From assembly GCA_002305045.1 (NCBI GenBank), contig DBPX01000009.1, positions 35,451-99,450 on the forward strand: a DNA stretch of 64,000 nucleotides, written 5' to 3'. Source of the stretch: Ruminococcus sp. UBA1409. GTDB taxonomy: Bacteria; Bacillota; Clostridia; Oscillospirales; Ruminococcaceae. The translations under genes and the position numbers were made by a program. The notes below the pieces were generated by a model. It was not told the DNA's origin and did not search any database. It was given only the letters and a program-made list of their open reading frames with translations. This document shows, piece after piece, positions 5,457 through 18,137 of the stretch (positions are counted from its first letter, which is position 1; the number at the start of each line of letters is the position of its first letter).

Positions 5457-5657
5457 TATAAACACTCCTTTTTGATTTTTTGTATCTATCCCACAGCTTT
5501 GGCAGTACACCGCCGTGAGAGCATCAAACCTTATAAAGCCCGAAACGGCGCTGCCGCACGGCTTAAATGAGTTTGCAATGCTATTATCTGCACTCTTTGA
5601 GCGTATATCAGTGGTAATTATTGATTTTGATATGTAACATTTTTCATTTTCACGGTA

Positions 5658-5686
5658 TTGACTGTCCGGGACTGTTGGGATATAAT
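5658..5686 (+). promoter_or_regulatory. Sigma-A promoter of the HAD gene
   Basis: TTGACT (5658-5663) and TATAAT (5681-5686) with a 17-base spacer, about 35 bases before the GTG start codon. Confidence 0.85.
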
Positions 5687-5722
5687 ATTCGCGTTAACGC
5701 TTTAAGATAAAGGAGATTTTTT

Positions 5723-6364
5723 GTGGAAAAGGCTGTTATTTTTGACCTCGACGGCACAATGTGGGACGCCTCCGAGACCGTTACCGACGCTTTTAACATC
5801 AGGCTTGCCCAGATGGGAATCCAAAGGCGGATTACCGTTGAGGAAATGATGGGTCAGATGGGCAGGACGCTCGAGGAGATAGCTTCGGTGTTTTTCGGCT
5901 CGGTAGACCCGGAAAATGCAGTAAATATAATGCGAAGCTGTACGGATTATGAAAATCAGTATATAAAAACCGCAGGCGTAAGGGTATATCCCGGGCTGGA
6001 AAGGACTCTTGAAGGTCTCAAGGAGGACGGCTGGGGAGTAATCTGCGTGTCAAACTGCCAGTCTGGGTACATAGAGTCGTTTATTGACTATCTGGGACTC
6101 GACGGCGTGTTCGACGATATCGAATGTTGGGGCAATACAGGTCTGGGCAAGGCGGAAAATATTAAGCTGGTAATACAAAGAAATCATGTTAACAAAGCAG
6201 TGTATGTCGGCGACACGATGGGCGATTACAACTCAGCCCTAGAGGCGGGAGCCGATTTCATCCACGCCGCCTACGGGTACGGGACCGTCCCCGAGGGGAC
6301 AAAAAGCATAGCCTCGCCAGAGGAGCTTTTAGGGCTTCTTAGGAGGCTTTATAGTAAAATATGA
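5723..6364 (+). CDS. HAD-superfamily phosphatase (phosphoglycolate phosphatase-like)
   Basis: A 213-residue hydrolase with all four HAD motifs: FDLDGTMWD near the N-terminus (nucleophile and acid Asp), a CVSN motif II near residue 108, a conserved Lys in the GLGKAEN region, and VGDTMGDYNSA for magnesium binding. The helical cap between motifs I and II places it among beta-phosphoglucomutase/phosphoglycolate phosphatase-like enzymes; the substrate is unknown. It starts at GTG behind a good AAAGGAG site. A single-gene transcript is likely because a promoter and a terminator enclose it. Confidence 0.85.
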   Translation: MEKAVIFDLDGTMWDASETVTDAFNIRLAQMGIQRRITVEEMMGQMGRTLEEIASVFFGSVDPENAVNIMRSCTDYENQYIKTAGVRVYPGLERTLEGLKEDGWGVICVSNCQSGYIESFIDYLGLDGVFDDIECWGNTGLGKAENIKLVIQRNHVNKAVYVGDTMGDYNSALEAGADFIHAAYGYGTVPEGTKSIASPEELLGLLRRLYSKI

Positions 6365-6392
6365 AGCTCTCTTGTGAGTGACGCAGCGAGAG

Positions 6393-6431
6393 GACGCCGT
6401 CTTGGGCATAGCCTGGGACAGCGTCTTTTTT
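6393..6431 (+). terminator. Terminator of the HAD gene
   Basis: GACGC..GTC (6393-6401) can pair with GAC.GCGTC (ending at 6425), followed by TTTTTT. It lies about 30 bases after the HAD stop codon. Confidence 0.65.
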
Positions 6432-6680
6432 GCTATGCAAAAGCATAGCAAAACTTTGAGATGCGCCATTTCCTCGCCCCTTCGGGGCAACCGGAAATGA
6501 TGCGCAAAAACTTCATGCGCCGCAGGTTTTTGTCCCTCATCGTGGTGCGCCGTGGAGCATGAAGTTTTATGCCTCAGACGGGGTAAGCCCCGCATCTTTT
6601 GCCAAAATTCAGCCCAGTCCAGACAAAAAAGCCGTAGTTAGTCCGATTTTTAGTACAGTTCGGGAAAATTTGCCTCCGGG
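6432..6680. other. Gene-free region with several inverted repeats
   Basis: No convincing gene is seen. The stretch holds a perfect palindrome TTGCTATGCAAAAGCATAGCAA near 6429-6450 and a stem-loop CGCCCCTTCGGGGC-like near 6474-6490 enclosed by ATTTCC/GGAAAT. It also has CATGAAGTTTTTG-type motifs facing each other at about 6500-6570. It separates the HAD unit from the phage-derived cluster. It could be untranslated or intergenic structured sequence; I cannot name it. Confidence 0.5.
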
Positions 6681-6683
6681 GGC

Positions 6684-6712
6684 TTGACAGACTGATTTTC
6701 TCGGTGTATTAT
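6684..6712 (+). promoter_or_regulatory. Sigma-A promoter of the phage-derived cluster
   Basis: TTGACA (6684-6689) and TATTAT (6707-6712) with a 17-base spacer. The predicted start, near 6719, abuts the LexA box. No other good promoter was found before the capsid genes, so this one probably drives the whole block. Confidence 0.82.
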
Positions 6713-6720
6713 GAATATCA

Positions 6721-6732
6721 GAACATATGTTC
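6721..6732 (+). promoter_or_regulatory. LexA (SOS) operator
   Basis: GAACATATGTTC is a perfect 12-base palindrome of the Gram-positive LexA/DinR form GAAC-N4-GTTC, followed by G as in the consensus. It starts nine bases after the -10 box, where bound LexA would block transcription. By family knowledge DNA damage would lift repression. This links the downstream packaging and lysis genes to the SOS response (inference from the site). Confidence 0.85.
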
Positions 6733-6755
6733 GAGCGATTCGGGTCGACTCGGAG

Positions 6756-6780
6756 AAAGACCGCTATTAGGTCTTTTTAT
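6756..6780 (+). terminator. Attenuator-like hairpin in the cluster leader
   Basis: AAAGACC (6756-6762) and GGTCTTT (6770-6776) form a 7-base stem with a 7-base loop, followed by TTATTT. It lies between the promoter/LexA box and the first gene. It resembles a short intrinsic terminator and might keep basal read-through low. Confidence 0.55.
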
Positions 6781-6808
6781 TTAGCTTATTTTAAGGAAAG
6801 GAAGGAAA

Positions 6809-7159
6809 ATGCCGGAAGATTACAGATGCATTAACTGCGGCATGGAGTTCTCCCAGCCCAAAAGAGTGCTGGACAATCCCTCCGGCGTCGCAGGACAGGA
6901 GGAGGGCTACAGCGTCTGCCCCTGCTGCGGCTCGGAGAGCTTTGAGAAAACCGTTTTGTGCCGTGTCTGCGGGATAAGGGCTGCCGTCAACGGTGACGAG
7001 CTGGCTCTTTGTCCTGACTGCAAAAGAGCGAGCCTAGAGCTCTTCAGGCTGATGCTAGGCTCCTATTTTTCAAGGGAGGAGGTCATGTATCTCAGCCGTG
7101 AGCTTGACGGCAGGGACCTCTGCGACGGCGTTGAATTTAGCTACGAAGGGAGGAGGTAG
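6809..7159 (+). CDS. Double zinc-ribbon protein of the phage-derived cluster
   Basis: 116 residues with four CxxC knuckles at about residues 7/10, 37/40, 51/54 and 68/71, enough for two zinc sites. The C-terminal third is helical and ends in a short acidic/basic stretch. No catalytic motif is visible. Its place as first gene after the LexA-controlled promoter, directly before the terminase genes, suggests a DNA-binding or regulatory role; this is inference. The start has a strong purine-rich ribosome-binding site. I do not recognise a named family. Confidence 0.75.
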   Translation: MPEDYRCINCGMEFSQPKRVLDNPSGVAGQEEGYSVCPCCGSESFEKTVLCRVCGIRAAVNGDELALCPDCKRASLELFRLMLGSYFSREEVMYLSRELDGRDLCDGVEFSYEGRR

Positions 7160-7160
7160 T

Positions 7161-7592
7161 ATTAATTCCGAGGATAAAAAAAGAGTTATTGACGAGTATT
7201 TACGCATAGGGACATACTCGGGGACGGCTAAAAGCCTTGGGATGTCAAGCTCGACCGTGAGAAGAATCGTCCTGGAGGCTAAAGGCGGCGAGGGCAGGGC
7301 TGAGGATGCAAAGCCAAGGACGGAGGCTCCCGCACAAAGGAGCGATATCGCTATGGAAATAATTGATAGGTGCCTAAGGCTTCTGGGAGACGAAAGAAAG
7401 CTTGAGGCTGCGACTCTGCCGCAGCTCTCCAGCGCCATATGCACGCTTATGGACAGGTTTGCCTCCGAGCCGGAGGAAAGGTCTGAATTTAGGGAGGACA
7501 GCCTGAGTCTTAGTCTTAGGGAGGCGGCAAAATACCTCTTTGAGGACCTGGGAGGATGTCAAAAGAGCGAGGAGGAGGAAAATGCTGACTGA
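7161..7592 (+). CDS. Terminase small subunit-like protein
   Basis: Recognises DNA for packaging. About 143 residues. Near the N-terminus EYLRIGTYSGTAKSLGMSSS is a helix-turn-helix typical of TerS DNA-binding domains, followed by a helical region that may oligomerise. Start choice is unusual: AGGAGG at 7151-7156 is followed four bases later by ATT in frame (I-N-S-E-D), just after the stop of the zinc-ribbon gene, and there is no nearby in-frame ATG. A GTG at 7098 would give a 61-base overlap with the preceding gene and a non-family-like leader. The gene overlaps terL by 11 bases. Confidence 0.75.
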   Translation: MNSEDKKRVIDEYLRIGTYSGTAKSLGMSSSTVRRIVLEAKGGEGRAEDAKPRTEAPAQRSDIAMEIIDRCLRLLGDERKLEAATLPQLSSAICTLMDRFASEPEERSEFREDSLSLSLREAAKYLFEDLGGCQKSEEEENAD

Positions 7593-8802
7593 AAAGCAGC
7601 TTAAAATCCTTGCCTTTTCCTATACCGACTACGACGCTATCATCTGCGACGGGGCGGTGAGGTCGGGAAAGACGAGCATTATGACCGTCTCGTTTATCGA
7701 CTGGGCGATGAGGCGCTTTGACGGCGTGAGGCTGGGCATCTGCGGGAAAACGGCTGACTCTGCGATAAAAAACATCATCCAGCCCTACCTTATTATGTCC
7801 TATCCAAGGCAGAGGTACACCCTCAAATGGAGGAGGTCTGAAAAGGTGCTGGAGGTCTCGCAGGGGAAAAGGAAAAACCTCTTTGAGGTCTTTGGCGGCA
7901 GGGACGAGTCCAGCAGTGCGCTGATTCAGGGAAGGACGCTTGGCGGTGTGTTTCTTGACGAGGTCGTCCTCATGCCGAAGAGCTTTGTCATGCAGGCAAT
8001 CGCCAGATGCTCGGTTGAGGGCGCAAGGCTGTGGTTTTGCTGCAACCCGGACAGCCCGGAGCACTGGTTCTACAAGGAGTGGATACTAAAGGCGAGGGAG
8101 AAAAACGCCCTATATCTTCACTTTGTCCTAGAGGACAATCCCTCCTTATCGGAGGCGACCCTGAGAAGATACCGCCAGGGCTACAGCGGAGTTTTCTATC
8201 AGCGGTACATCCTAGGCGAGTGGACTGCGGCGGAGGGGCTTGTCTATCAGCTTCCTGAGGACGCCGTCACCGACTACATCCCGGAGTACGGGGAGTACTA
8301 CATCTCCTGCGACTACGGCACGATGAATCCGTTTTCGATAGGTCTTTGGTGCGTCAGCGAGGGCGTCGCCTACAGGCTGAGGGAGTTTTACTACGACGGC
8401 AGAGCGTCCGGCAGGCAGCTCACCGACGAGGAATACTATGACGAGCTTAAAAGACTCGCAGCCGGATATCCCATCCGCTTTGTGGTGGTGGACCCCTCTG
8501 CGGCGTCCTTTATAACCCTGATAAAGAGGGCTGGCGAGCTGAGGGTAAAAAGAGCCAAAAACGATGTCATAAGCGGAATAAGGCTGACAGCCGGGCTTTT
8601 AAGGCAGGGGAAAATCAGGATAAATCCCTCCTGCAAGGACAGCCTCAGGGAGTTTAAGCTCTACAGGTGGGACGAAGACTCCGGCACCGACAGGGTCATA
8701 AAGGAAAACGACCACGCCATGGACGACATAAGGTACTTTGTGGCGACCGTGCTCTCCGGCAGGCAGTTTTCCTATCCCTCGCACAGGGCTGACAGCGTAT
8801 AA
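7582..8802 (+). CDS. terL: Phage terminase large subunit
   Basis: ATPase and nuclease motor that packages DNA into proheads. 406 residues from the ATG at 7582, chosen because GGAGGAGG lies directly upstream. The N-terminal ATPase has a Walker A variant GAVRSGKTS (about residues 24-32) and Walker B GGVFLDEV (about 125). The RNase H-like nuclease domain has its acidic residues in CDYGTMNP (about 242), VVDPSAA (about 300) and NDHAMDD (about 375). All active-site residues appear intact, so the motor is likely functional. Fits the Terminase_3/SPP1-like type. Confidence 0.94.
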   Translation: MLTEKQLKILAFSYTDYDAIICDGAVRSGKTSIMTVSFIDWAMRRFDGVRLGICGKTADSAIKNIIQPYLIMSYPRQRYTLKWRRSEKVLEVSQGKRKNLFEVFGGRDESSSALIQGRTLGGVFLDEVVLMPKSFVMQAIARCSVEGARLWFCCNPDSPEHWFYKEWILKAREKNALYLHFVLEDNPSLSEATLRRYRQGYSGVFYQRYILGEWTAAEGLVYQLPEDAVTDYIPEYGEYYISCDYGTMNPFSIGLWCVSEGVAYRLREFYYDGRASGRQLTDEEYYDELKRLAAGYPIRFVVVDPSAASFITLIKRAGELRVKRAKNDVISGIRLTAGLLRQGKIRINPSCKDSLREFKLYRWDEDSGTDRVIKENDHAMDDIRYFVATVLSGRQFSYPSHRADSV

Positions 8803-8825
8803 AAAATGCAAAGAAAGGAAAGGGT

Positions 8826-10133
8826 ATGAAAACTTATCAGGACATGAAAAGGGCGTTGAAGGAGGATCCAGAAAACGGGCTTTATTCCTTCATCCTAGAA
8901 AGCGTGAGGGACTACAAGCGCTCCGACGCCTACAAAACCGCTCTTGAGGCTATAGACTACTGGCGGAATCAGAATCCGACCATAACAAAGTATCAGAAGC
9001 TTTTGTACACCGTGTCGGGAGGGACGGCTCCTGACAACTACTCGGCTAACTACAAGCTGGCTACAAATGTCTACTTCCGCTTTATAACCCAGACTGTGCA
9101 GTATCTTTTGGGAAAGGGCGTCAGCTTTGACAGCCCGGACACCAAAAAAAGGCTTGGCGGCAGGGCGTTTGACAAGGCTCTTCAGACCGCTCTTACTGCG
9201 GCTCTGAACGGCGGGACGGCTTACGGCCTTTGGAACAGCGACAGGCTTGAGGTATTCGGAGCGGAGGAGTTTGTCCCGCTTTACGACGAGGAGAGCGGCT
9301 CTTTGATGGCGGGAATAAGATTTTGGCAGCTTGAAAGGGACAGACCGCTCAGGCTCTCGCTTTTCGAGGAGGACGGCTGCACAGAGCTTATAATGAAGGA
9401 TTCTGACGAGCTTCCTGCGGTGCTGAGAAAAAAGCAGCCCTACAGGAAAACAACAGCATATCTTCCCTCCGGGGAGGAGCTTTTAAGAATCGACGAGAAC
9501 TACTCAAGGCTCCCGGTCATAATCCTTCGCTCACCGAGAAAGCAGTCCTCGATAATAGGCTTTAAGAAGCTTATAGACTGCCACGACCTGATCGCCTCCG
9601 GGTATGCGAACGACATCGACGACGCCTCGCTGATATACTGGACGATATCAAACGCCGGCGGAATGGATGAAATCGACCTTGCAAAATTTGTAAAGCAGCT
9701 CAGAACAGTAAGAGCCGCCGTTGTCGAGGACGACGGAGCAAGAGCGGAGGCTCACTCAGTATCTCTGCCATACGAGAGCAGGGAGGCTATTTTAAACAGG
9801 CTGGAGTCGGATATGTATAGGGACTTCATGGTCTTAAATCCCGACACCATCCACGGAGGCACCAGCACCGCAACCGCAATAAAGGCGGCTTACGAGCCGA
9901 TGAACCTTTATTCAAACCTTCTGGAGGCGAGCGTCTCGGAGTTTATAAGCGAGCTTTTGGAGCTGCTTGACATAAGCGACAGCCCCAGCTTCACAAGGAC
10001 TACAATCGTAAATGAGCTGGAAATCGCCAACACCAAAAAGGCAAGAGTCGAAACGGCTCTTTTGCTTAAGGAGGTCTTGGGCGAGCAGAAGGTCAGGGAG
10101 CTTATAGAGGAGATAGTCGGTCAGGGGATATAG
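8826..10133 (+). CDS. Phage portal protein (SPP1 gp6-like)
   Basis: 435 residues. Forms the dodecameric ring at one capsid vertex through which DNA passes and to which the terminase docks. Family-like stretches include the YYRNxNPTI-type segment (here YWRNQNPTITKYQK) near residue 44, the ATNVYFRFITQTVQYLLGKG helix region, and NPDTIHGGTSTATAIKA near residue 340. It follows terL by 23 bases with its own AAAGGAAAGGG ribosome-binding site. It is full length for this family, with no sign of decay. Confidence 0.9.
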   Translation: MKTYQDMKRALKEDPENGLYSFILESVRDYKRSDAYKTALEAIDYWRNQNPTITKYQKLLYTVSGGTAPDNYSANYKLATNVYFRFITQTVQYLLGKGVSFDSPDTKKRLGGRAFDKALQTALTAALNGGTAYGLWNSDRLEVFGAEEFVPLYDEESGSLMAGIRFWQLERDRPLRLSLFEEDGCTELIMKDSDELPAVLRKKQPYRKTTAYLPSGEELLRIDENYSRLPVIILRSPRKQSSIIGFKKLIDCHDLIASGYANDIDDASLIYWTISNAGGMDEIDLAKFVKQLRTVRAAVVEDDGARAEAHSVSLPYESREAILNRLESDMYRDFMVLNPDTIHGGTSTATAIKAAYEPMNLYSNLLEASVSEFISELLELLDISDSPSFTRTTIVNELEIANTKKARVETALLLKEVLGEQKVRELIEEIVGQGI

Positions 10134-10175
10134 CGGCTGTCAGGGAAGTCTTTTGAATTTGAAAGGATATATAAT

Positions 10176-10754
10176 ATGTCATTAACCAGAAAAATGCTAA
10201 AGGAAATGGGCATAGGGGATATAAGCATAGAGAAGATTATAGCCGCCCATACCCAGACTCTCGAGGGGGTTGAAAAGCTCAGGGAGGACTCAAAAAGGCT
10301 CGAGGAGGCAAATTCCGAGCTTGAGAGGCTAAGAGCGCTCCTTAGTGAGGACTGGGAGGGAAAATACCGCTCGCTCAGCGAGGAGTACGAGAGCTATAAA
10401 AAGGGCGTGGAGGACGCCGCCCTCAAGGAAAAGAGGGTGAGCCTTCTTACAGGTCTTATGAGGGAATGCGGGGTTCTGGAGGAATGTATAGCTCCCATAA
10501 CCGAGATAAGCAGCCTGGAGGCAATAGGCTTCTCAGAGGACGGAGAGCCTCTTGAGGTGGAGTCTATCAAGCAGGAGATAATGTCGAAATGGGCAGCCTT
10601 TATCCCCAAAACGGTGACCGTCGGGCTGACGGTCGCCGACCCGCCCAAGGAACCGGGCGAGAAGGTCTTTACCCGTGAGGACCTAAAGAGGATGACTCCA
10701 CGGGAGATTAACCAAAACTATGATAAAATAGTCGAGGACCTAAGGCATATATAG
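10176..10754 (+). CDS. Phage capsid scaffolding protein
   Basis: 192 residues, highly charged. Residues 20-100 form a predicted long coiled coil (KLREDSKRLEEANSELERLR and similar), as in DUF4355/GP20-like scaffolds. A basic, proline-rich C-terminal part probably contacts the coat protein. Position between portal and coat genes is the classical place for a scaffold. No protease gene is visible, so the scaffold is probably released rather than cleaved (inference). Confidence 0.82.
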   Translation: MSLTRKMLKEMGIGDISIEKIIAAHTQTLEGVEKLREDSKRLEEANSELERLRALLSEDWEGKYRSLSEEYESYKKGVEDAALKEKRVSLLTGLMRECGVLEECIAPITEISSLEAIGFSEDGEPLEVESIKQEIMSKWAAFIPKTVTVGLTVADPPKEPGEKVFTREDLKRMTPREINQNYDKIVEDLRHI

Positions 10755-10787
10755 CCGTTTCGGTCCGAAAGGAAAGGATGATATTAA

Positions 10788-11621
10788 ATGGCAGTAACTA
10801 ATTTTATACCCGAGCTTTGGAGCGCAAGGCTGCTTCAGTCGCTTGAAAAAACCCATGTAGCCGCAAACCTTGTAAACCGTGACTACGAGGGTGAGATAAG
10901 ACAGCAGGGCGACACCGTGCATATAAATATGATAGGAGCTATCACCGTCCGGGACTACACCAAAGGCTCCGACATCGTAGCGCCTGAGGAGCTTAGCACC
11001 ACCGACCAGACCCTTGTCATCTCCCAGGCAAAATACTTTAACTTCCAGATTGACGATGTGGACGCCGCACAGGTAGCGGGAAGCCTGATGGACAGCGCCC
11101 TGGCAAGAAGCGCATACGCCCTTAAGGACGCTGCTGACAGCTACATTCTAAAGACTATAGCCGACGGACTTCTCACAGAAAACACCATAGGAAGCTCCGC
11201 CGCCGTCGCTCTCACCAAGGACAACATCTACGAGAACATCATCAAGCTAAGGCTTATTCTTGACAGGAACAATGTCCCCCTTGAGGGCAGAACCATCGTA
11301 ATACCTCCTGAGGCTTATGCCCTTCTTTTGCAGGACTCCAGGTTTGTCTCTGGAGACATCGGCAGCGAGGCTCTAAGAAGCGGCTACATAGGAAGCGTAG
11401 CCGGCTTTGAAATCTACGAGTCAAACAACTGCAGCAAGTCAGACTCCACCTACACCATCACCGCACAGGTGAGGTCAGCCTGCACCTACGCCGAGCAGAT
11501 AGTCGAGACCGGCGCATACCGTCCCGAAAAGAGATTTGCCGACGCCGTCAAGGGGCTTCATGTATACGGCGCAAAGGTTGTCGACCAGACCCAGATAGCA
11601 GGGCTTCTTTGTACCTTCTGA
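10788..11621 (+). CDS. Major capsid protein
   Basis: 277 residues beginning MAVTNFIPELWSARLLQSLE, typical of the P22-coat-type/HK97-fold capsid proteins of Firmicute phages. Then come QQGDTVHINMIGAITVRDY and a region with FQIDDVDAAQV characteristic of this family, and a C-terminal domain with GFEIYESNN. It directly follows the scaffold gene. The absence of frameshifts indicates selection to keep an assembling shell. Confidence 0.9.
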   Translation: MAVTNFIPELWSARLLQSLEKTHVAANLVNRDYEGEIRQQGDTVHINMIGAITVRDYTKGSDIVAPEELSTTDQTLVISQAKYFNFQIDDVDAAQVAGSLMDSALARSAYALKDAADSYILKTIADGLLTENTIGSSAAVALTKDNIYENIIKLRLILDRNNVPLEGRTIVIPPEAYALLLQDSRFVSGDIGSEALRSGYIGSVAGFEIYESNNCSKSDSTYTITAQVRSACTYAEQIVETGAYRPEKRFADAVKGLHVYGAKVVDQTQIAGLLCTF

Positions 11622-12040
11622 TGAGCGAGCTGACGATTACTAAGGTCTGCCGCCACATAAAAAACTACTTTGAAAGGGATTCGATAGAGGGGGACCTTGT
11701 CATTTCCCAGGGCACGCTCTCCTGCGGCGACAGGCTACCAGAGGGCTGCTACTACCGAATTCTGGGGAGCCTTCACAACGACGGGGTGCATCTGCACCCC
11801 GCCCAGGGGCTTACCGATGAGTCCTTTAGCGGCAGTGTGCGGATTATGGCTCCCCCGGAGGACTTTCTTAGCCTTGTTCTTGAAATCGAGGAGTATGAGG
11901 CCTCAAAAAACGGCTCGGCGGAGGGCTTTGTTTCAGAGAGCTTCGGCGGCTACTCCTATAAAAAAGCGACAAGCGGCGGCAGACCTCTTGGCTGGCGACA
12001 GATTTTTAAGAGCAGACTGGACGATTTTAGAAAAATTTAG
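11621..12040 (+). CDS. Head-tail connector-like protein
   Basis: 139 residues starting with MSELTITKVCRHIKNYF, a helical N-terminus resembling gp6/gp15-type adaptor proteins that bind below the portal. The ATG at 11621 overlaps the capsid stop codon (TGATG), so the two genes are coupled; the TTG 12 bases upstream is less likely. By position it should be the first head-completion protein. Confidence 0.68.
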   Translation: MSELTITKVCRHIKNYFERDSIEGDLVISQGTLSCGDRLPEGCYYRILGSLHNDGVHLHPAQGLTDESFSGSVRIMAPPEDFLSLVLEIEEYEASKNGSAEGFVSESFGGYSYKKATSGGRPLGWRQIFKSRLDDFRKI

Positions 12041-12052
12041 GAGGGATGGCTT

Positions 12053-12406
12053 TTGCTGTACGAAAGGGTTATGGAGAGCTGCAGGCTGATAAGGCAGTCG
12101 GTGTCTTTAGACGCTGACGGCAACAGGGTCATTGTAAAGGAGCAGCCGGTTGACATCATGGCGGCGTTTTCGGAGGACGGAACAAGAACGGCAGAGACGG
12201 CGGGAGGAGTCTGCGAGGTAATAAGCTACACCGTTACCCTTTTAGAGGAGTACGGGGCGGCTCCCGGGGACATAATCCTTCGTGAAAACAATCAGGAGCT
12301 TAGACTTACGGGGGCGGCGGAGCGTCCGCCCTCGTTCAGCGGGATAAGCTTCAGGCAGTACAAGGGGGAGGCTTGGGAATATGAGCATGGAACAGTCAAT
12401 GCATGA
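12053..12406 (+). CDS. Head-closure-like phage protein
   Basis: 117 residues; starts at TTG behind AGGAGGG. The sequence is beta-rich (RLIRQSVSLDADGNRVIV, ISYTVTLLEEYG) and resembles small stopper/head-closure proteins in length and position, but no decisive motif is seen. It overlaps the following gene by 26 bases. Function is inferred from gene order. Confidence 0.6.
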   Translation: MLYERVMESCRLIRQSVSLDADGNRVIVKEQPVDIMAAFSEDGTRTAETAGGVCEVISYTVTLLEEYGAAPGDIILRENNQELRLTGAAERPPSFSGISFRQYKGEAWEYEHGTVNA

Positions 12407-13139
12407 GTTTTTCTGTCAGTTCGGCGTTCCCGCCTTAAAGGAAGGCTCGGTGAGCCTTGGAGGGCTTCGTCCCGAGCTTCCGTATTTAACCTATTCCGAT
12501 GTCTCGGTGCTAAAGACCGGCGGACAGCAGAAAATAACCGTCAATGTTTATTACAGAGACGACACGGACTGGCGGTCTCCCGGGGAGTTCGAGGAGCTTG
12601 CAGGGATTTTCATACCGATGGAGGGGACCTACTGCTATTACGACTCCGGGACGGTATATATTGCAAGAGGGGACAGCTTTTTAAGCCATGCCAGCCCCTC
12701 GGGGACACGCTCCGACCCGTCCTTGAGGACGGTAAGAATGGAGCTTCTGGCGGAGGCTGTAAATCAGACCGAGACGATAGTATTTGGCTCAGGCTCAAGC
12801 TCGGTATCGTTTCCCGCCGGGACTAAGATTATCCCGAAATACACCCTTGACGGCTCCAGGTCAAAAACGCTGAGCGGAAGGATTGTCGTAGACTACACCG
12901 GCGTAAGAAGGGAGCTTGAGGTGAAAACCGGCTGGGTCAGGCTTGACGACGCCGAGGACCTTGTAAGCCTGGTAGCATCGTCGCCAAGGATGCTGGTGAG
13001 GTGCCCTATGCTCTTTGGGCTGATGGGAGCTAAGTATTACTTAGTGGACCCTCCCAAAATCACCCAGAGCCGCTTCTGCCCGTTTTCCCAGTATCAGTAT
13101 GTAAGGCTGACCATATCGGCGATTGAAAGCGAGGTGTGA
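12381..13139 (+). CDS. Putative tail-completion/adaptor protein, two-domain
   Basis: 252 residues. The first 110 or so (HEFFCQFGVPALKEG, PYLTYSDVSV, ITVNVYYRDD) resemble tail-terminator proteins of siphophages, which are normally about this length on their own. The second half (VFGSGSSSVSFPAGTKI onward) is a beta-rich domain that is not part of that family, so the gene looks like a fusion. It is followed immediately by the 480-residue gene. A role in capping the portal or attaching a short tail is inference. Confidence 0.5.
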   Translation: MSMEQSMHEFFCQFGVPALKEGSVSLGGLRPELPYLTYSDVSVLKTGGQQKITVNVYYRDDTDWRSPGEFEELAGIFIPMEGTYCYYDSGTVYIARGDSFLSHASPSGTRSDPSLRTVRMELLAEAVNQTETIVFGSGSSSVSFPAGTKIIPKYTLDGSRSKTLSGRIVVDYTGVRRELEVKTGWVRLDDAEDLVSLVASSPRMLVRCPMLFGLMGAKYYLVDPPKITQSRFCPFSQYQYVRLTISAIESEV

Positions 13140-13142
13140 GAA

Positions 13143-14585
13143 TTGGACAGCAGCATAAGCTACGACCCGGAGCTAAGGGTAAGAGAGGTCGGAGCCAGAA
13201 TTGTGATAAGCTCACGGGCGTATGAGCTTCGGCAGGCGTCGACAGCCAGCTTTTCGGACAGCTCGGCGTTCAGCCAGGACTCGCAGGCGTCGGCGCTTCT
13301 CGACGGGGACAAAAGCAGTGCGGCGGCTACGGTAAGCTCCCCGGCAGGAGCTACCATACAGATAAGGTGCGGCTCGATGTACTACTCGGACGGAGTTGGA
13401 ATCTGCCTTCTTTCCTCCGGCGAGCTTCCTATAGGGATATCGGTTGGCTTTATCTATTCGGACGGTCAGAAAACGGTAGTAGCTGACCTTTCTGGATACA
13501 GCTCGGTGTCCGAGCTGCAGGATGGCGTGATATTTGTAAAAAAGCCGGACAGAAGCCTTGAGCCGACCGGCTTTGATATTTACATTTCAGGAAGCGGGGC
13601 TGTCATAAGCGAGATACTTTTATCCACCACCCCGGAGGAGGGAATAGTCTTTGAAGCCGGCGACATATCCTCCTTGAGCATATGGGAGGGCGCCGATATC
13701 ACCGGGCTTACTCTAAGCTCAAGGAAGCTGGAGGTCATACTTCCCTCTGTCTGCGCCCCGAGAATCAAGGGGAGCGTCTTTGGGAGCCTTGTTTCAGCAT
13801 GGATTTCGGTGAACGGAAGCTACTATCATGCGGGGGACTTCTACGTCGACAGCTTTTCAAACGAGGGCAGTATCTCACGGCTTAAGGCGAGCGACCAGGT
13901 GACAAGGATGGCAAGGTATGAAACCGGCCTTTATGTAAACTCGCCGGTTAGCCTCTCCCTTCTGCTTGAAAATCCCACGGGAGCCGTCGCTGGGCTTAGC
14001 TTTATGAGCAACAGCTACTCTCTGGGAGCGCTTGTCCAGCCGAGGATGCTGGAGGGCATAGACACCCAGAAAAGATGCGTTTTGAAGCTTGCCCAGGCGG
14101 CAAGGCTGTCGTCTTGCTGGGTGGACAGAAAGGGCAGAGTCAATATAATTAGCCTTGTCAACAGGTTCTTGACGGAGGGAAGCACAGCCTCCCTTACCGT
14201 CACCCACAACCAGATAACCGGGATAGTCAGCGACAGCTATACTCCTGCATACACGATGGCTAGGCTGTATGAAAAGAGCACAAGCTCGTCTGCACTGTCC
14301 GCCTCGGGGGTGTACAGACCGGGAGAGTATGCACAGTCCCTGATTAACGACTTCACCGCCTCCTCCGAGAATAAGACAATAAGCGACAATTTACTGCTCG
14401 GTATGAATCTCAGGCACAGGCTCAAAATCGAGACTAGATTCGACCCGAGGCTTGAAATAGGCGATATTATTGAGCTTGAGAGGCTGGAGGACAGATCAAG
14501 GCATGAGAGCTTTATTTTCGTCGGTCAGAGCATCGTCCTAAAGGACGGACGGCTGTCCTCGGTTATCGAGCTGGTCGGCGAGTAG
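13143..14585 (+). CDS. Putative phage tail/adsorption protein, serine-rich
   Basis: 480 residues starting at TTG three bases after the previous stop. Residues 1-120 are rich in Ser/Ala; the middle is beta-rich; the last 60 residues (RFDPRLEIGDIIELE and FVGQSIVLKDG) resemble the C-terminal part of tail hub/XkdQ-like proteins. It is the largest protein of the cluster. It is far too short and lacks the helical repeats for a tape measure. It may form the distal tip of a very short tail or a receptor-binding structure; this is inference. Confidence 0.5.
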   Translation: MDSSISYDPELRVREVGARIVISSRAYELRQASTASFSDSSAFSQDSQASALLDGDKSSAAATVSSPAGATIQIRCGSMYYSDGVGICLLSSGELPIGISVGFIYSDGQKTVVADLSGYSSVSELQDGVIFVKKPDRSLEPTGFDIYISGSGAVISEILLSTTPEEGIVFEAGDISSLSIWEGADITGLTLSSRKLEVILPSVCAPRIKGSVFGSLVSAWISVNGSYYHAGDFYVDSFSNEGSISRLKASDQVTRMARYETGLYVNSPVSLSLLLENPTGAVAGLSFMSNSYSLGALVQPRMLEGIDTQKRCVLKLAQAARLSSCWVDRKGRVNIISLVNRFLTEGSTASLTVTHNQITGIVSDSYTPAYTMARLYEKSTSSSALSASGVYRPGEYAQSLINDFTASSENKTISDNLLLGMNLRHRLKIETRFDPRLEIGDIIELERLEDRSRHESFIFVGQSIVLKDGRLSSVIELVGE

Positions 14586-14620
14586 ACTGATTAGAATCAG
14601 ATTGGAGGCTTGATATATAG

Positions 14621-15265
14621 ATGACAGGATTGCTGGGAATTGACATTTCAAAACATCAAAAGGCGGGAGAGGTGGATTTTTCTGAGCTTAAGGCGCTTGG
14701 CTACGAATTTGTCATGCTAAGAGCGGGGTACGGAATGTATCCCGGTCAGGAGGACTCCGCCTTTTCAAGCCATTACAAGGCAGCACGGCAGGCGGGACTG
14801 GAGGTGGGAGCCTACCACTACAGCTACGCCAAAAGCGAGTCAGAGGCTAAAAGGGAGGCGGAGTGCTTTCTTGGCTGGATAAGGGACAAAAGGCTTAGCT
14901 ACCCGGTGGCGTTTGACATCGAGGACGGCAGTCAGAAAAAGCTTGGAAAAAGCCTTTGCACCGACATAGCCCTTAGCTTTATGGAGAGGGTGGAGTCTGC
15001 GGGGTATTACACTATGCTCTACAGCTATGCAAATTTCATTAAAAACTGTCTGGATATGAGTAGACTCAGGCATTTTGATGTCTGGCTGGCGTGCTACACC
15101 TCGGAGAAAAGAAGGGATGAGCTTTATACGCATCCCGTGCTGGGAATCTGGCAGTATTCCTCCTCTGTGATACTGCCCTCGGTCTATAAATCCAGGCTCG
15201 ACCACAACATCTCCTACAAGGACTATGCTAAAATCATAAAAAATGCAGGACTTAACAATCTCTAG
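14621..15265 (+). CDS. GH25 lysozyme (endolysin)
   Basis: 214 residues. Cleaves the beta-1,4 bond between MurNAc and GlcNAc in peptidoglycan. Family GH25 features: GIDISKHQKAGEVDF at the start, the YEFVMLRAGYG strand, GAYHYSYA, and the catalytic acidic pair in VAFDIEDG; then WQYSSS near the C-terminus. There is no signal peptide and no separate wall-binding domain, so release would depend on the adjacent holin. The location after the structural genes is typical of a lysis cassette. Confidence 0.92.
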   Translation: MTGLLGIDISKHQKAGEVDFSELKALGYEFVMLRAGYGMYPGQEDSAFSSHYKAARQAGLEVGAYHYSYAKSESEAKREAECFLGWIRDKRLSYPVAFDIEDGSQKKLGKSLCTDIALSFMERVESAGYYTMLYSYANFIKNCLDMSRLRHFDVWLACYTSEKRRDELYTHPVLGIWQYSSSVILPSVYKSRLDHNISYKDYAKIIKNAGLNNL

Positions 15266-15283
15266 GCAAAGGGAGGGATAGCG

Positions 15284-15655
15284 TTGGAGCTGTTCAGGGA
15301 GTTTATTTCAGAGTATGGCAGTACGATTTTGTACGCCGTGGTAACTGCGGCGGCAGGATATCTAGGAGTCGTCGTCAAGAGGCTGTACACAAGAATCATC
15401 AACGACAGGACTAAGCAGGACCTTGCAAAAACGGTAGTCTCTGCTGTCGAGCAGATATACAAGGACCTTCACGGAGAGGAGAAGCTCAAAAAGGCTGTCG
15501 AGGCGCTTTCAGAGATGCTCGGGGACAGAGGAATAAATATCACCGAGCTTGAGCTTAGGATGCTTATAGAGTCTGCGGTTGCGGAGTTCAACAGGGCGTT
15601 TAAAAGCGGCAGCGAGGAGGAAGCCGGTAAGAGCGGCTTGGCGGCTGTCTCCTAA
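15284..15655 (+). CDS. Phage holin, LLH-type
   Basis: 123 residues starting at TTG. One N-terminal transmembrane segment (about 12-31, ILYAVVTAAAGYLGVVV) is followed by a charged helical region ending in GINITELELRMLIESAV, typical of LLH-family holins encoded next to endolysins. It should make membrane lesions that let the GH25 enzyme reach the wall. With the lysozyme gene 18 bases upstream, it completes the lysis cassette. Confidence 0.85.
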   Translation: MELFREFISEYGSTILYAVVTAAAGYLGVVVKRLYTRIINDRTKQDLAKTVVSAVEQIYKDLHGEEKLKKAVEALSEMLGDRGINITELELRMLIESAVAEFNRAFKSGSEEEAGKSGLAAVS

Positions 15656-15774
15656 GCGAGCTTACAGGTCCTTTGCACGAATTTTAGCTAACCGTGATAT
15701 AAACGCCTCCTAGGGTACGGTATAATTATATCAGGTCGGCAGGGTCAGCCGTAAAAAATGAGGAGGCGCAGAAT

Positions 15775-15936
15775 ATGTACAAAACAGTAGTAATAGAGTA
15801 TTCACCCAGGGCTGAGGACATGGCTAAAAGAATTGAGGAAAGGGCTAACGAGCTTTATAAAGAGGGCTTTTTGCTTGTTACGGTAACCGTTACCGGCTCT
15901 GCAAGGGCTGTAATGGTGCTAAAGAGCGTAGATTAG
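15775..15936 (+). CDS. Small protein of 53 residues, unknown
   Basis: Read directly from the sequence: ATG at 15775 behind GAGGAGG, stop at 15934-15936. The protein MYKTVVIEYSPRAEDMAKRI... has a beta-alpha-beta-beta layout and ends in MVLKSVD, resembling DUF4177-type small proteins. It lies 120 bases after the holin; a TATAAT at 15721-15726 lacks a clear -35 box. Whether it belongs to the phage-derived cluster or to the host is uncertain. Confidence 0.6.
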   Translation: MYKTVVIEYSPRAEDMAKRIEERANELYKEGFLLVTVTVTGSARAVMVLKSVD

Positions 15937-15941
15937 CTGTA

Positions 15942-16097
15942 ATGGACTCAAACAAAATCAGCGCCGCTTTGTATGGAATAACCGCCGTGCTTTTTGTAAT
16001 CTGTGCCGCCGTCGGGGACAGCCCCGCCTTTTACGGAGTTGCGGCCGCCTTTGCGGCTCTAGCGGCGGCGCAGGCGGCAAATTGCAAAAAAGGGTGA
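15942..16097 (+). CDS. Small two-helix membrane protein of 51 residues
   Basis: ATG at 15942, six bases after the previous stop; ends KKG before TGA at 16095. Two hydrophobic stretches (about 8-22 and 27-44), the second alanine-rich, are joined by a short GDSP turn, a hairpin-like layout reminiscent of very small holins or membrane peptides. No family recognised. The ribosome-binding site is weak, so it may depend on translational coupling. Confidence 0.5.
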   Translation: MDSNKISAALYGITAVLFVICAAVGDSPAFYGVAAAFAALAAAQAANCKKG

Positions 16098-16121
16098 TAG
16101 AGCTACAAGACTCTATCACCC
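16092..16121 (+). terminator. Strong hairpin closing the cluster
   Basis: GGGTGATAGAG (16092-16102) pairs perfectly with CTCTATCACCC (16111-16121) around an 8-base loop. There is no long T-run, so it may be a processing or pausing hairpin rather than a classic terminator. It overlaps the end of the 51-residue gene. Confidence 0.55.
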
Positions 16122-16224
16122 CTCAGGGCTGCTCTTTGGAGCTCCCAGCGAGAGCTTTCAGGCGTATATAAAGCGTGGGGCTTGGGCGTTTTCCAAAAAA
16201 AACAGGATTTTTTTAAAAAAGCAC

Positions 16225-16253
16225 TTGACAAACCCATTGCGTTGTTGTATAAT
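16225..16253 (+). promoter_or_regulatory. Promoter of tRNA-Thr
   Basis: TTGACA (16225-16230) and TATAAT (16248-16253), spacer 17, perfect consensus, 34 bases before the mature tRNA. Confidence 0.88.
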
Positions 16254-16287
16254 AGCAAGCGTTGTACGGCTTGCGTACATGGATGGT

Positions 16288-16363
<76 letters not shown>

Positions 16364-16403
16364 TTATTTTTTTGCCGTGAGACTCTAAGACTGCCTCGAC
16401 AAA

Positions 16404-16425
16404 AAGCCCTCGGGCTTATTTTTTT
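16404..16425 (+). terminator. Terminator after tRNA-Thr
   Basis: AAGCCC (16404-16409) and GGGCTT (16412-16417) form a stem followed by A and seven T. Confidence 0.75.
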
Positions 16426-16468
16426 ACCAATTTTAGGGTTTTGACGGCTGATTTTCACCCTCCGGCTT

Positions 16469-17710
16469 TTAAGAATCGGAATCCTCAAGACCGTCGGGGA
16501 GGGCGTCCTCACCGCTGTCAGCCGAGCCTATGCTGACTCCCGGCATGGAGTAGTAGCTGTTGTCGGTAGGCATATTCTTCCTGCGGAGCCTTGTCTCGAC
16601 TATCGAGTTGATGGTGTCAAATATGACGGCGAAGAGAGGCACTCCTATTATCATTCCGACAACTCCGAACAGTCCTCCGCATATCAGTATCGCAAACAGC
16701 ACCCAGAAGGAGGAAAGCCCTATTTTGTTTCCTAGAATCTTAGGCTCTATCACATTGGCGTCCAGCTGCTGCAAAGCTATTATGAATAGTATAAACCATA
16801 TCACCTTGCCGGGGTCGGCTATAAGCACCAGAACGGCGGAGGGTATCGCTCCGATAAACGGACCGAAAACCGGGATTATGTTTGTCGTTCCGATGATAAT
16901 CGCTATAAGCATGGCATACGGCATCTTGAATATCATCATAAACAGCCCGCAGAGGAGTCCTATGAGCAAGGAGTCCAATATCTTGCCGTAGATGAAGCTG
17001 AGGAAGGCGTGGTTTGTGTTGGAGGTAATTGAAAAGATGCTGTGATAGGTCTTTTCCGAGAACAAGGCCACGATTATCCTTTTAGCCTGAGCCTGTAAAA
17101 GCTCCTTGCTGAAAAGAAAGTATATCGCCAGGATGAAGCCGAAGAAGAAGTTTTTAACCGAGTTTGCAAAGTCCAAAACCGATGTCAAAAGGTTTCTTAG
17201 CTGCGGCACGAGTCCGTTTATCAGCTGACCCAGGTTTCTTGTCAGCTCATCCAGCTGGTTTGTGACGACATTTGCAATGCTCGGGTTGTCGTCAAGGATT
17301 TTAACTATCCAGCTCTCCGCCTGAGGAAGAGCCTCGTTCATAAGACCGTCATAGATTCCCGGGATGTTTGAAATCAGCTCTGGGATTACTGAAAGAATTA
17401 TCGCCGCAATAGCCGCTATGAATATCACCGAGGCGCAGACTACCCCAATTGCCCTGGCGACACGGGGTGCGGGTCTTTTTTTAAACACCCTGCGGTTTAA
17501 AAAGCCCTCCGTCTTTTTCATAATCGGGTTCATGATAAAGGCTATCACCATTCCCCAGATTACCGGCGAGAATATGTGGGAGATGCTTGACACCAGCGAC
17601 TTGACGATGTCCCACTGGAAAATCACCACGATGATAACAAGCGTCAGCATCACAAAGGCGAAGCAGTATTTGAAAATCTTATTGTATTTTTTGTCGTTAA
17701 AAACCTTCAT
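16469..17710 (-). CDS. AI-2E family transporter (YtvI/PerM-like permease)
   Basis: 413 residues, integral membrane protein with about eight transmembrane segments: two near the N-terminus (residues 12-60), one at about 80-105, then a large central loop, then a C-terminal cluster from about 190 on. The family signature is seen in ANVIEPKILGNKIGLSSFWV and GVVGMIIGVPLFAVI. Family members export autoinducer-2 or act as sodium/proton antiporters or sporulation channels; the role here is open. The C-terminus is acidic and serine-rich. It is a single minus-strand gene divergent from pcrA. Confidence 0.88.
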   Translation of the reverse strand: MKVFNDKKYNKIFKYCFAFVMLTLVIIVVIFQWDIVKSLVSSISHIFSPVIWGMVIAFIMNPIMKKTEGFLNRRVFKKRPAPRVARAIGVVCASVIFIAAIAAIILSVIPELISNIPGIYDGLMNEALPQAESWIVKILDDNPSIANVVTNQLDELTRNLGQLINGLVPQLRNLLTSVLDFANSVKNFFFGFILAIYFLFSKELLQAQAKRIIVALFSEKTYHSIFSITSNTNHAFLSFIYGKILDSLLIGLLCGLFMMIFKMPYAMLIAIIIGTTNIIPVFGPFIGAIPSAVLVLIADPGKVIWFILFIIALQQLDANVIEPKILGNKIGLSSFWVLFAILICGGLFGVVGMIIGVPLFAVIFDTINSIVETRLRRKNMPTDNSYYSMPGVSIGSADSGEDALPDGLEDSDS

Positions 17711-18137
17711 CCCGGCATCCTTTCGTATCTATCAAGCAGGATTATTGGCTGTTTTATGAAGCTGTATGCCGCTCCTGGCTGGATTATGATTATAATTATG
17801 AACATAAAAACAGTATACACCATAAATATGCAGTATGTAAAGACTTTTAATATATATTTAATCTCGATTTTGGAATAAATTTAATCTTGGATTTCTATTT
17901 TCTTTTGGACCTCTTTGTGATATAATAAAGCTTAACTGATTTGCGCTTGAGATTTATTAGGGAGCCTTTGCCTTTTGGACGAAGTCGCCGCAAGCGGCAA
18001 AACGCAAGACTCCCGGCTTGATAAGCCCTTAGGAACGGCTATGAAAAGCATTTTCGGTCAACGGCAGAAAATCTGGGCTAGATAAGCTCCTTGACCTTTA
18101 CCGCTCGGGCGGAGACTAATACAATCCGGAGGATGGC
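17711..18137 (+). other. Divergent promoter region and long leader of pcrA
   Basis: A gene-free stretch. On the plus strand an extended -10 element TGATATAAT (about 17920-17928) would start a leader of about 190 bases. The leader contains the perfect hairpin GCCGCAAGCGGC (near 17988-17999), an enclosing GGGAG/CTCCC pair, and a second complementary pair around AAGCCC/GGGCT. It ends in GGAGG before the pcrA ATG. No known riboswitch pattern was matched. The left part, AT-rich, presumably holds the promoter of the minus-strand permease gene. Confidence 0.45.

Follow-up and report, generated by a model that had tools for sequence, protein, structure and literature searches.

Is a short run of phage-type packaging and lysis genes in a Ruminococcus chromosome a prophage on its way out, or equipment that the host keeps? 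The question arises from a locus in the window, as we call the whole stretch of 64,000 nucleotides analyzed here, which belongs to a 1.74-Mb draft genome with a completeness of 88.5%. The cluster is real, and its appearance is not that of a prophage in decay. Judging from its genes, the selection seen in relatives and predicted protein folds, it is probably a domesticated element resembling gene transfer agents (GTAs) that descended from a siphophage and has a tail of almost zero length.

Gene content and genomic site

Profile searches of the window revealed a run of genes of about 9 kb on the plus strand (6809 to 15655), extending from a zinc-ribbon gene through a holin gene; all cluster genes lie on this strand, and their coordinates are those of the first-pass annotation. 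In the list and throughout, class A denotes the genus genomes that encode the window's type of coat protein (16 of 31, window included) and class B the other 15, none of which encodes it.

6684–6733, plus strand: promoter TTGACA-17-TATTAT and LexA-type box AGAACATATGTTCG (promoter scan; box kept in class A)
6809–7159, plus strand: zinc-ribbon protein, accessory (weak Pfam matches)
7098–7592, plus strand: probable small terminase (TerS) with N-terminal HTH (weak HTH matches; alignment with 14 relatives; start codon uncertain)
7540–8802, plus strand: large terminase (TerL) with Walker and nuclease motifs (profiles, motifs; start codon uncertain)
8826–10133, plus strand: portal protein, SPP1 type (profile matches)
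10176–10754, plus strand: capsid scaffold (weak Pfam match; homologue in Dulem virus 33)
10788–11621, plus strand: major coat protein (profile matches)
11609–12040, plus strand: head-tail connector (profile match; relatives; comparison with Dulem virus 33)
12053–12406, plus strand: probable head-closure protein (weak match, 2e-4, to the G011 homologue)
12381–13139, plus strand: g252, tail-terminator-like ring (residues 1–129) fused to a baseplate/Dit-like tube ring (130–252) (relatives, predicted fold)
13143–14585, plus strand: g480, tail hub (gp27/gp44/Tal fold) with an insert (predicted fold)
14621–15265, plus strand: GH25 lysozyme, endolysin (Pfam)
15284–15655, plus strand: holin, superfamily 6 (LLH) (profile matches)
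15775–16097, plus strand: two small ORFs with no assigned function, cluster membership doubtful (ORF list)

The profile matches agreed with the first annotation of TerL, portal, scaffold (weakly), coat, connector, GH25 lysozyme and holin in one orientation. TerL matched phrog_2 (1.1e-50), the portal an SPP1-type Pfam family (6.2e-28), the coat phrog_267 (1.8e-78), GH25 and the holin their families (8.5e-33 and 7.1e-19), and a 143-aa ORF a head protein (4.7e-5), while the matches of TerS to an HTH (0.004) and of the scaffold (2.9e-4) were both under the Pfam cut-off. The catalytic residues of TerL had been called intact, and the Walker and nuclease motifs that we looked for were all present. 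The G011 homologue of the head-closure protein is itself a weak head-closure match, and the family matches the head closure of Dulem virus 33. Among the loci of relatives compared, the zinc-ribbon gene had a relative only in G021, and the ORFs at 15775–16097 matched nothing among the plus-strand ORFs of the class A loci or in Pfam.

An integrase, phage replication genes and a tape measure, all reported as missing, were not found either. No tape-measure-like ORF occurred among the cluster ORFs, and neither an integrase nor a phage replication gene was detected among 10 flanking ORFs searched against Pfam (two of them gave no match) or, by reading ORFs, in the rest of the window; the flanking matches were to acetyltransferase, SLOG/LDC, SASP, HAD, AI-2E, UvrD/PcrA, DUF4364 and YfbR families. 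Direct repeats of 14–26 nt are present in 5600–17800 and none brackets the cluster, a search that shorter or poorer repeats could escape. The GC content of the cluster is 0.528 versus 0.486 outside it, and values of 0.51–0.53 are common within the window. The locus thus lacks the integrase, replication genes and attachment repeats (of at least 14 nt) of an active temperate prophage and, as in a GTA, combines structural and packaging genes with the absence of integrase and replication genes.

The cluster adjoins a tRNA-Thr gene and an AI-2E/pcrA pair. The suggestion that relatives might share this very site, between the HAD gene and tRNA-Thr, was not borne out: their clusters lie downstream of tRNA-Ser(GGA), which was found upstream of the cluster in all 14 class A relatives having upstream sequence (about 8 kb away in G021). 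A tRNA-Thr lies near the AI-2E locus in every class A relative fetched except G023 (13 of 14) and in none of the class B loci fetched. We also compared the AI-2E locus of 29 other genomes (flanks of up to 1.5 kb), where neither the HAD gene nor the zinc-ribbon or holin gene of the window had a match, and a gene read as metK occupies the place of the window's cluster in G011. Since the sites of the window and its relatives differ, there has been movement of the element, or of the DNA around it, in one lineage or more. An empty site with attachment repeats had been named as the mark of an ordinary prophage remnant; the window's site is indeed without the cluster in relatives, but the cluster stands elsewhere in each class A relative and no attachment repeat was found. 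As to the other mark, many inactivating mutations in relatives, one gene appears split, the connector gene of G021 (two overlapping frames at L261 3038–3477, reflecting inactivation or an assembly error). Contigs also break inside or right next to terL or the start of the portal gene in three assemblies, G021 (L031/L261), G001 (L045/L262) and G012 (L039).

Conservation, promoter control and selection

TerL of the window's type was found in all 31 genus genomes examined, as a fragment in G020. In fourteen of the 15 class B genomes there is a compact cluster of a different make, about 7 kb long, whose portal, coat and tip genes are not those of class A; the fifteenth, G020, was too fragmentary for a cluster call. 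Class B TerL occurs as one close copy per genome, 51–57% identical to that of the window; the class B cluster contains no long tape-measure-like ORF, and genes matching the GH25 lysozyme or holin of the window are not in line with it. The genus sample includes at least six metagenome assemblies, a feature that we count against the GTA reading.

At the level of the order, a coat match (E up to 1e-20) was detected in 93 of 394 evenly drawn genomes, the best hit outside the genus being 57% identical. Of 20 order-wide coat loci, the four from f20, a different family of the order (L330, L331, L332 and L334), form compact clusters; these combine genes for TerL, portal and scaffold and a coat of the same family with different neck genes. 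The L330 coat belongs to phrog_267, its portal to another family (phrog_156), and it also has a weak head-tail adaptor match; L332 carries CGAACATTTGTTCG 3.9 kb upstream of the coat. Our guess is that these four are clusters of the FpGTA I type (see below). Another of the 20 loci, L315, contains an ORF of 1323 aa, possibly a tape measure. Two class A genomes, G024 and G029, harbor a prophage with two extra coat genes, 50–53% identical to the window's coat and preceded by a scaffold fragment (L263 1750–14625 and L264 2309–12568). By profiles, the L263 prophage encodes, in order, its own TerL, portal, protease, HK97-type coat (phrog_10), the two extra coats (phrog_267), major tail protein and tape measure, and the L264 prophage resembles it by reading; such a prophage may capture the particle or interfere with it.

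The promoter of the cluster (TTGACA-17-TATTAT, 6684–6712) is sigma-70-like, although the scan gave 7 promoter-like sites versus 5.9 in shuffles. Downstream of it, at 6720–6733, lies the LexA-type box. A perfect GAAC-N4-GTTC precedes the operon in all 15 class A loci having upstream sequence, 434–970 bases upstream of the terL start; G012 was left out of this count because its contig ends inside terL. The box is the sole perfect site in each fetched class A locus, except for two loci with a tandem pair. In the 14 class B loci of the genus, the 1.5 kb preceding terL contained no perfect site (one locus offered 0.6 kb only); two had one beyond that distance, and in the relative G035 a perfect site lies 574 bases upstream of terL. 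The window's genome contains six perfect GAAC-N4-GTTC places versus 153 for the reversed pattern, and three of the six have the sequence GAACATATGTTC. This genome encodes LexA (Pfam match above cut-off), and GAACATTTGTTT, with one mismatch to the box, stands just upstream of the gene preceding lexA, read as murC. With a box at its promoter and a LexA-encoding genome, the operon appears from sequence to belong to a LexA regulon. Another perfect GAACATATGTTC in this genome (L270 1501) is flanked by a DUF896 gene and an ORF of 110 aa, and the sequence around it resembles a promoter; in Bacillus, genes of the DUF896 family are linked to the SOS response.

Selection was assessed as median dN/dS over pairs of an 11-species clade of relatives, to which the window does not belong, using only pairs with dS of 0.05–1.2 (55 pairs possible). 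All 11 cluster genes tested had medians between 0.046 and 0.228. For terL, the median was 0.047 (40 of 55 pairs), compared with 0.048 for pcrA (17 pairs), and those of portal (0.070, 42 pairs) and coat (0.133, 49 pairs) likewise indicated purifying selection in this clade, as had been suggested at the outset. Medians were 0.067 for the hub (7 pairs), 0.077 for GH25 (23 pairs) and 0.224 for the scaffold, with single pairs up to 0.73; for these six cluster genes, 7 to 52 of the 55 pairs were counted. Of the six genes tested in this clade for head and packaging proteins, terL and portal were under the strongest constraint.

A tree of five cluster proteins shared six of 13 splits with the pcrA tree (mean 0.11 and maximum 4 in 5000 label shuffles), and the class B trees shared five of 10 (13 genomes). 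The seven other splits conflict, with support at deep nodes: the cluster tree joins G023 to G011/G012/G021 (93), the pcrA tree G000 to the same three (99). Descent has therefore been mainly, not strictly, vertical. Single-gene trees place class A and class B on opposite sides of one branch (support of 100 and 96 for TerL), while the pcrA branch parting their hosts has a support of only 64 and the window's pcrA branch is long, so that recombination or another history is possible. Together, these results suggest conservation in the host lineage with mostly vertical descent and purifying selection, as in a GTA, notwithstanding some deep tree conflict and with dN/dS taken from the 11-species clade. 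The view of an intact phage-derived packaging and lysis cluster that is host-kept and SOS-linked gained from TerL in 31 of 31 genomes, the box in 15 of 15 loci and the shared tree splits.

These data bear directly on the idea of a defective prophage remnant heading to loss. Most phage genes are missing, the site is not common to relatives and the G021 connector is split, all of which a remnant would explain. Such a remnant would hardly show dN/dS medians of 0.046–0.228 across 11 genes, a version of the cluster in all 31 genus members, a conserved promoter box and an in-frame fusion kept in 11 species, and we regard this explanation as extremely unlikely.

A neck and tail tip without a tube

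The first-pass annotation had listed the baseplate among the missing parts, which predicted folds contradict. The predicted fold of g480 is that of a gp27/gp44 hub, with an insert (about residues 26–165) that is poorly modeled in parts. In the g252 model, the second half resembles a baseplate ring or Dit N-domain and the first half a terminator-like ring. Neither protein had a match in Pfam or PHROGs. In four relatives, the terminator-like and baseplate/Dit-like genes are separate, with a tail-tube gene between them; the tube gene is absent from the window and from the 11-species clade, each of which carries a different fusion, and the in-frame fusion is maintained across the 11 species. The 249-aa protein of class B corresponds to two genes that stand separate in G035, and the 249- and 311-aa class B proteins gave no profile match to the class A neck or hub. 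These observations give about an even chance to a fuller scenario, in which a siphophage tail collapsed to zero length by deletion of the tube and fusion of the terminator or head-closure ring to the baseplate ring, yielding a host-owned, SOS-switched DNA-transfer particle; there would be two such fusions in class A and a parallel gene fusion in class B, whose tip proteins lack sequence kinship to them, with every species of the genus keeping one of the two machines.

The packaging genes may have changed as well. In the alignment of 15 genomes (G012 excluded), TerS lacks the N-terminal HTH in 10, which may reflect a loss of packaging-site recognition as in GTAs; the window is not among these 10, and the HTH is kept in G019, of the same clade as HTH-less ones, and in G000, G011, G021 and G023.

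On the GTA-like reading, DNA damage would cause LexA to leave the box at 6720, and the single operon would be transcribed. Coat and scaffold would form a small head on the portal, and TerS and TerL would load it with DNA; as no phage genome remains at the locus, the cargo would be host DNA. Connector, head-closure protein and g252 would then close the neck, the two rings of g252 representing the first and last ring of a siphophage tail in one chain. Hub g480 would sit directly on g252, giving a tail of nearly zero length. Lysis of the cell by holin and GH25 lysozyme would release the particles; these would probably bind kin via g480 and deliver DNA. Delivery is the least certain of these steps, and the absent tube makes injection of DNA uncertain. 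Against the GTA reading we also count the tree conflict, the unshared locus, the HTH kept in the window's TerS and the split connector of G021.

A capsid-forming satellite (cf-PICI-like), with its own heads and a helper phage's tails, would likewise have head genes without tube or tape measure, and the prophage of two relatives does carry coat genes of the same family. A satellite of this kind has an integrase beside its head genes, and the flanking ORFs tested include none. The cluster has its own hub, SOS-type box and lysis genes, each genus member has one close TerL, and tree splits are shared; in addition, the terminator-ring fusion in the predicted g252 fold would offer the tail of a helper no obvious face to dock onto. 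We consider such a satellite very unlikely.

Killing tails normally keep their tube. The loss of the tube here thus counts against a PBSX-like particle, for which SOS-made heads would kill competitors, or lysis itself would be selected, with DNA not delivered. The box kept in 15 of 15 loci, the retained lysis gene (GH25 dN/dS of 0.077) and the shrunken tail would all fit it, and the same alternative is raised in the discussion of FpGTA in the available part of PMC12946183. It accounts poorly for the strongest constraint, among the six head and packaging genes, falling on TerL and portal, and for a TerS that dropped its HTH and not the whole gene. We judge this possibility unlikely, and prefer the GTA-like reading.

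Relation to known systems

RcGTA- and CcGTA-type GTAs consist of domesticated head, terminase and tail genes under host control, as would be the case here. The nearest phage is Dulem virus 33 (PP511792), a temperate siphophage whose TerL is 61% identical to the window's and which has homologues of portal, scaffold, connector, closure, terminator and tube in an order identical to class A. It differs in its 40-kb size and in having an integrase, replication genes and a tape measure, and its coat and tail tip gave no match to those of class A.

The cluster had been taken for no described system, which needs qualification since the accessible part of PMC12946183 describes a system of this kind, the FpGTA of Faecalibacterium, by our analysis the nearest published case. 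It is called there the first GTA found in the human gut microbiome (PMC12946183, 2026), with 40-nm heads holding about 9 kb of DNA, two operons (separated by about 125 kb in one strain), a podovirus-like designation and operon I in 12 of 12 Faecalibacterium genomes. As in the window, FpGTA I and II are compact sets from gut Clostridia that lack an integrase and replication genes and encode TerS, TerL, portal, scaffold and coat, and FpGTA includes holin and endolysin and shows no visible tail. According to the same portion of the paper, FpGTA TerS has no obvious DNA-binding domain, resembling in this respect 10 of 15 class A genomes and not the window; GTAs are likely SOS-inducible, and that portion names no LexA box for FpGTA. 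Compared by description only, the window's cluster has a single operon, a siphophage-type head and neck and a LexA-type box, whereas the two operons and podovirus-like neck of FpGTA were not found in it. Other gut taxa, several in number, are also reported there to package DNA in a GTA-like way, among them Ruminococcus callidus with 4.6-kb fragments, and the paper, as far as available, names operons for Faecalibacterium only (PMC12946183). We noted class B-like gene runs in the Ruminococcus genomes L138 (Ruminococcus flavefaciens Y1), L116, L117, L128 and L129; these could give rise to short host fragments of the sort reported from R. callidus.

GTAs are known from few lineages. The locus adds a defined single-operon GTA candidate with a conserved LexA-type box and a phage relative, and the living intermediates suggest how a host may trim a siphophage, by removing the TerS HTH, removing the tube and fusing neck and tip. 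Two questions become testable with it: which loci produce the host-DNA particles of gut viromes, and whether DNA can still be delivered by a particle that lacks the tail tube.
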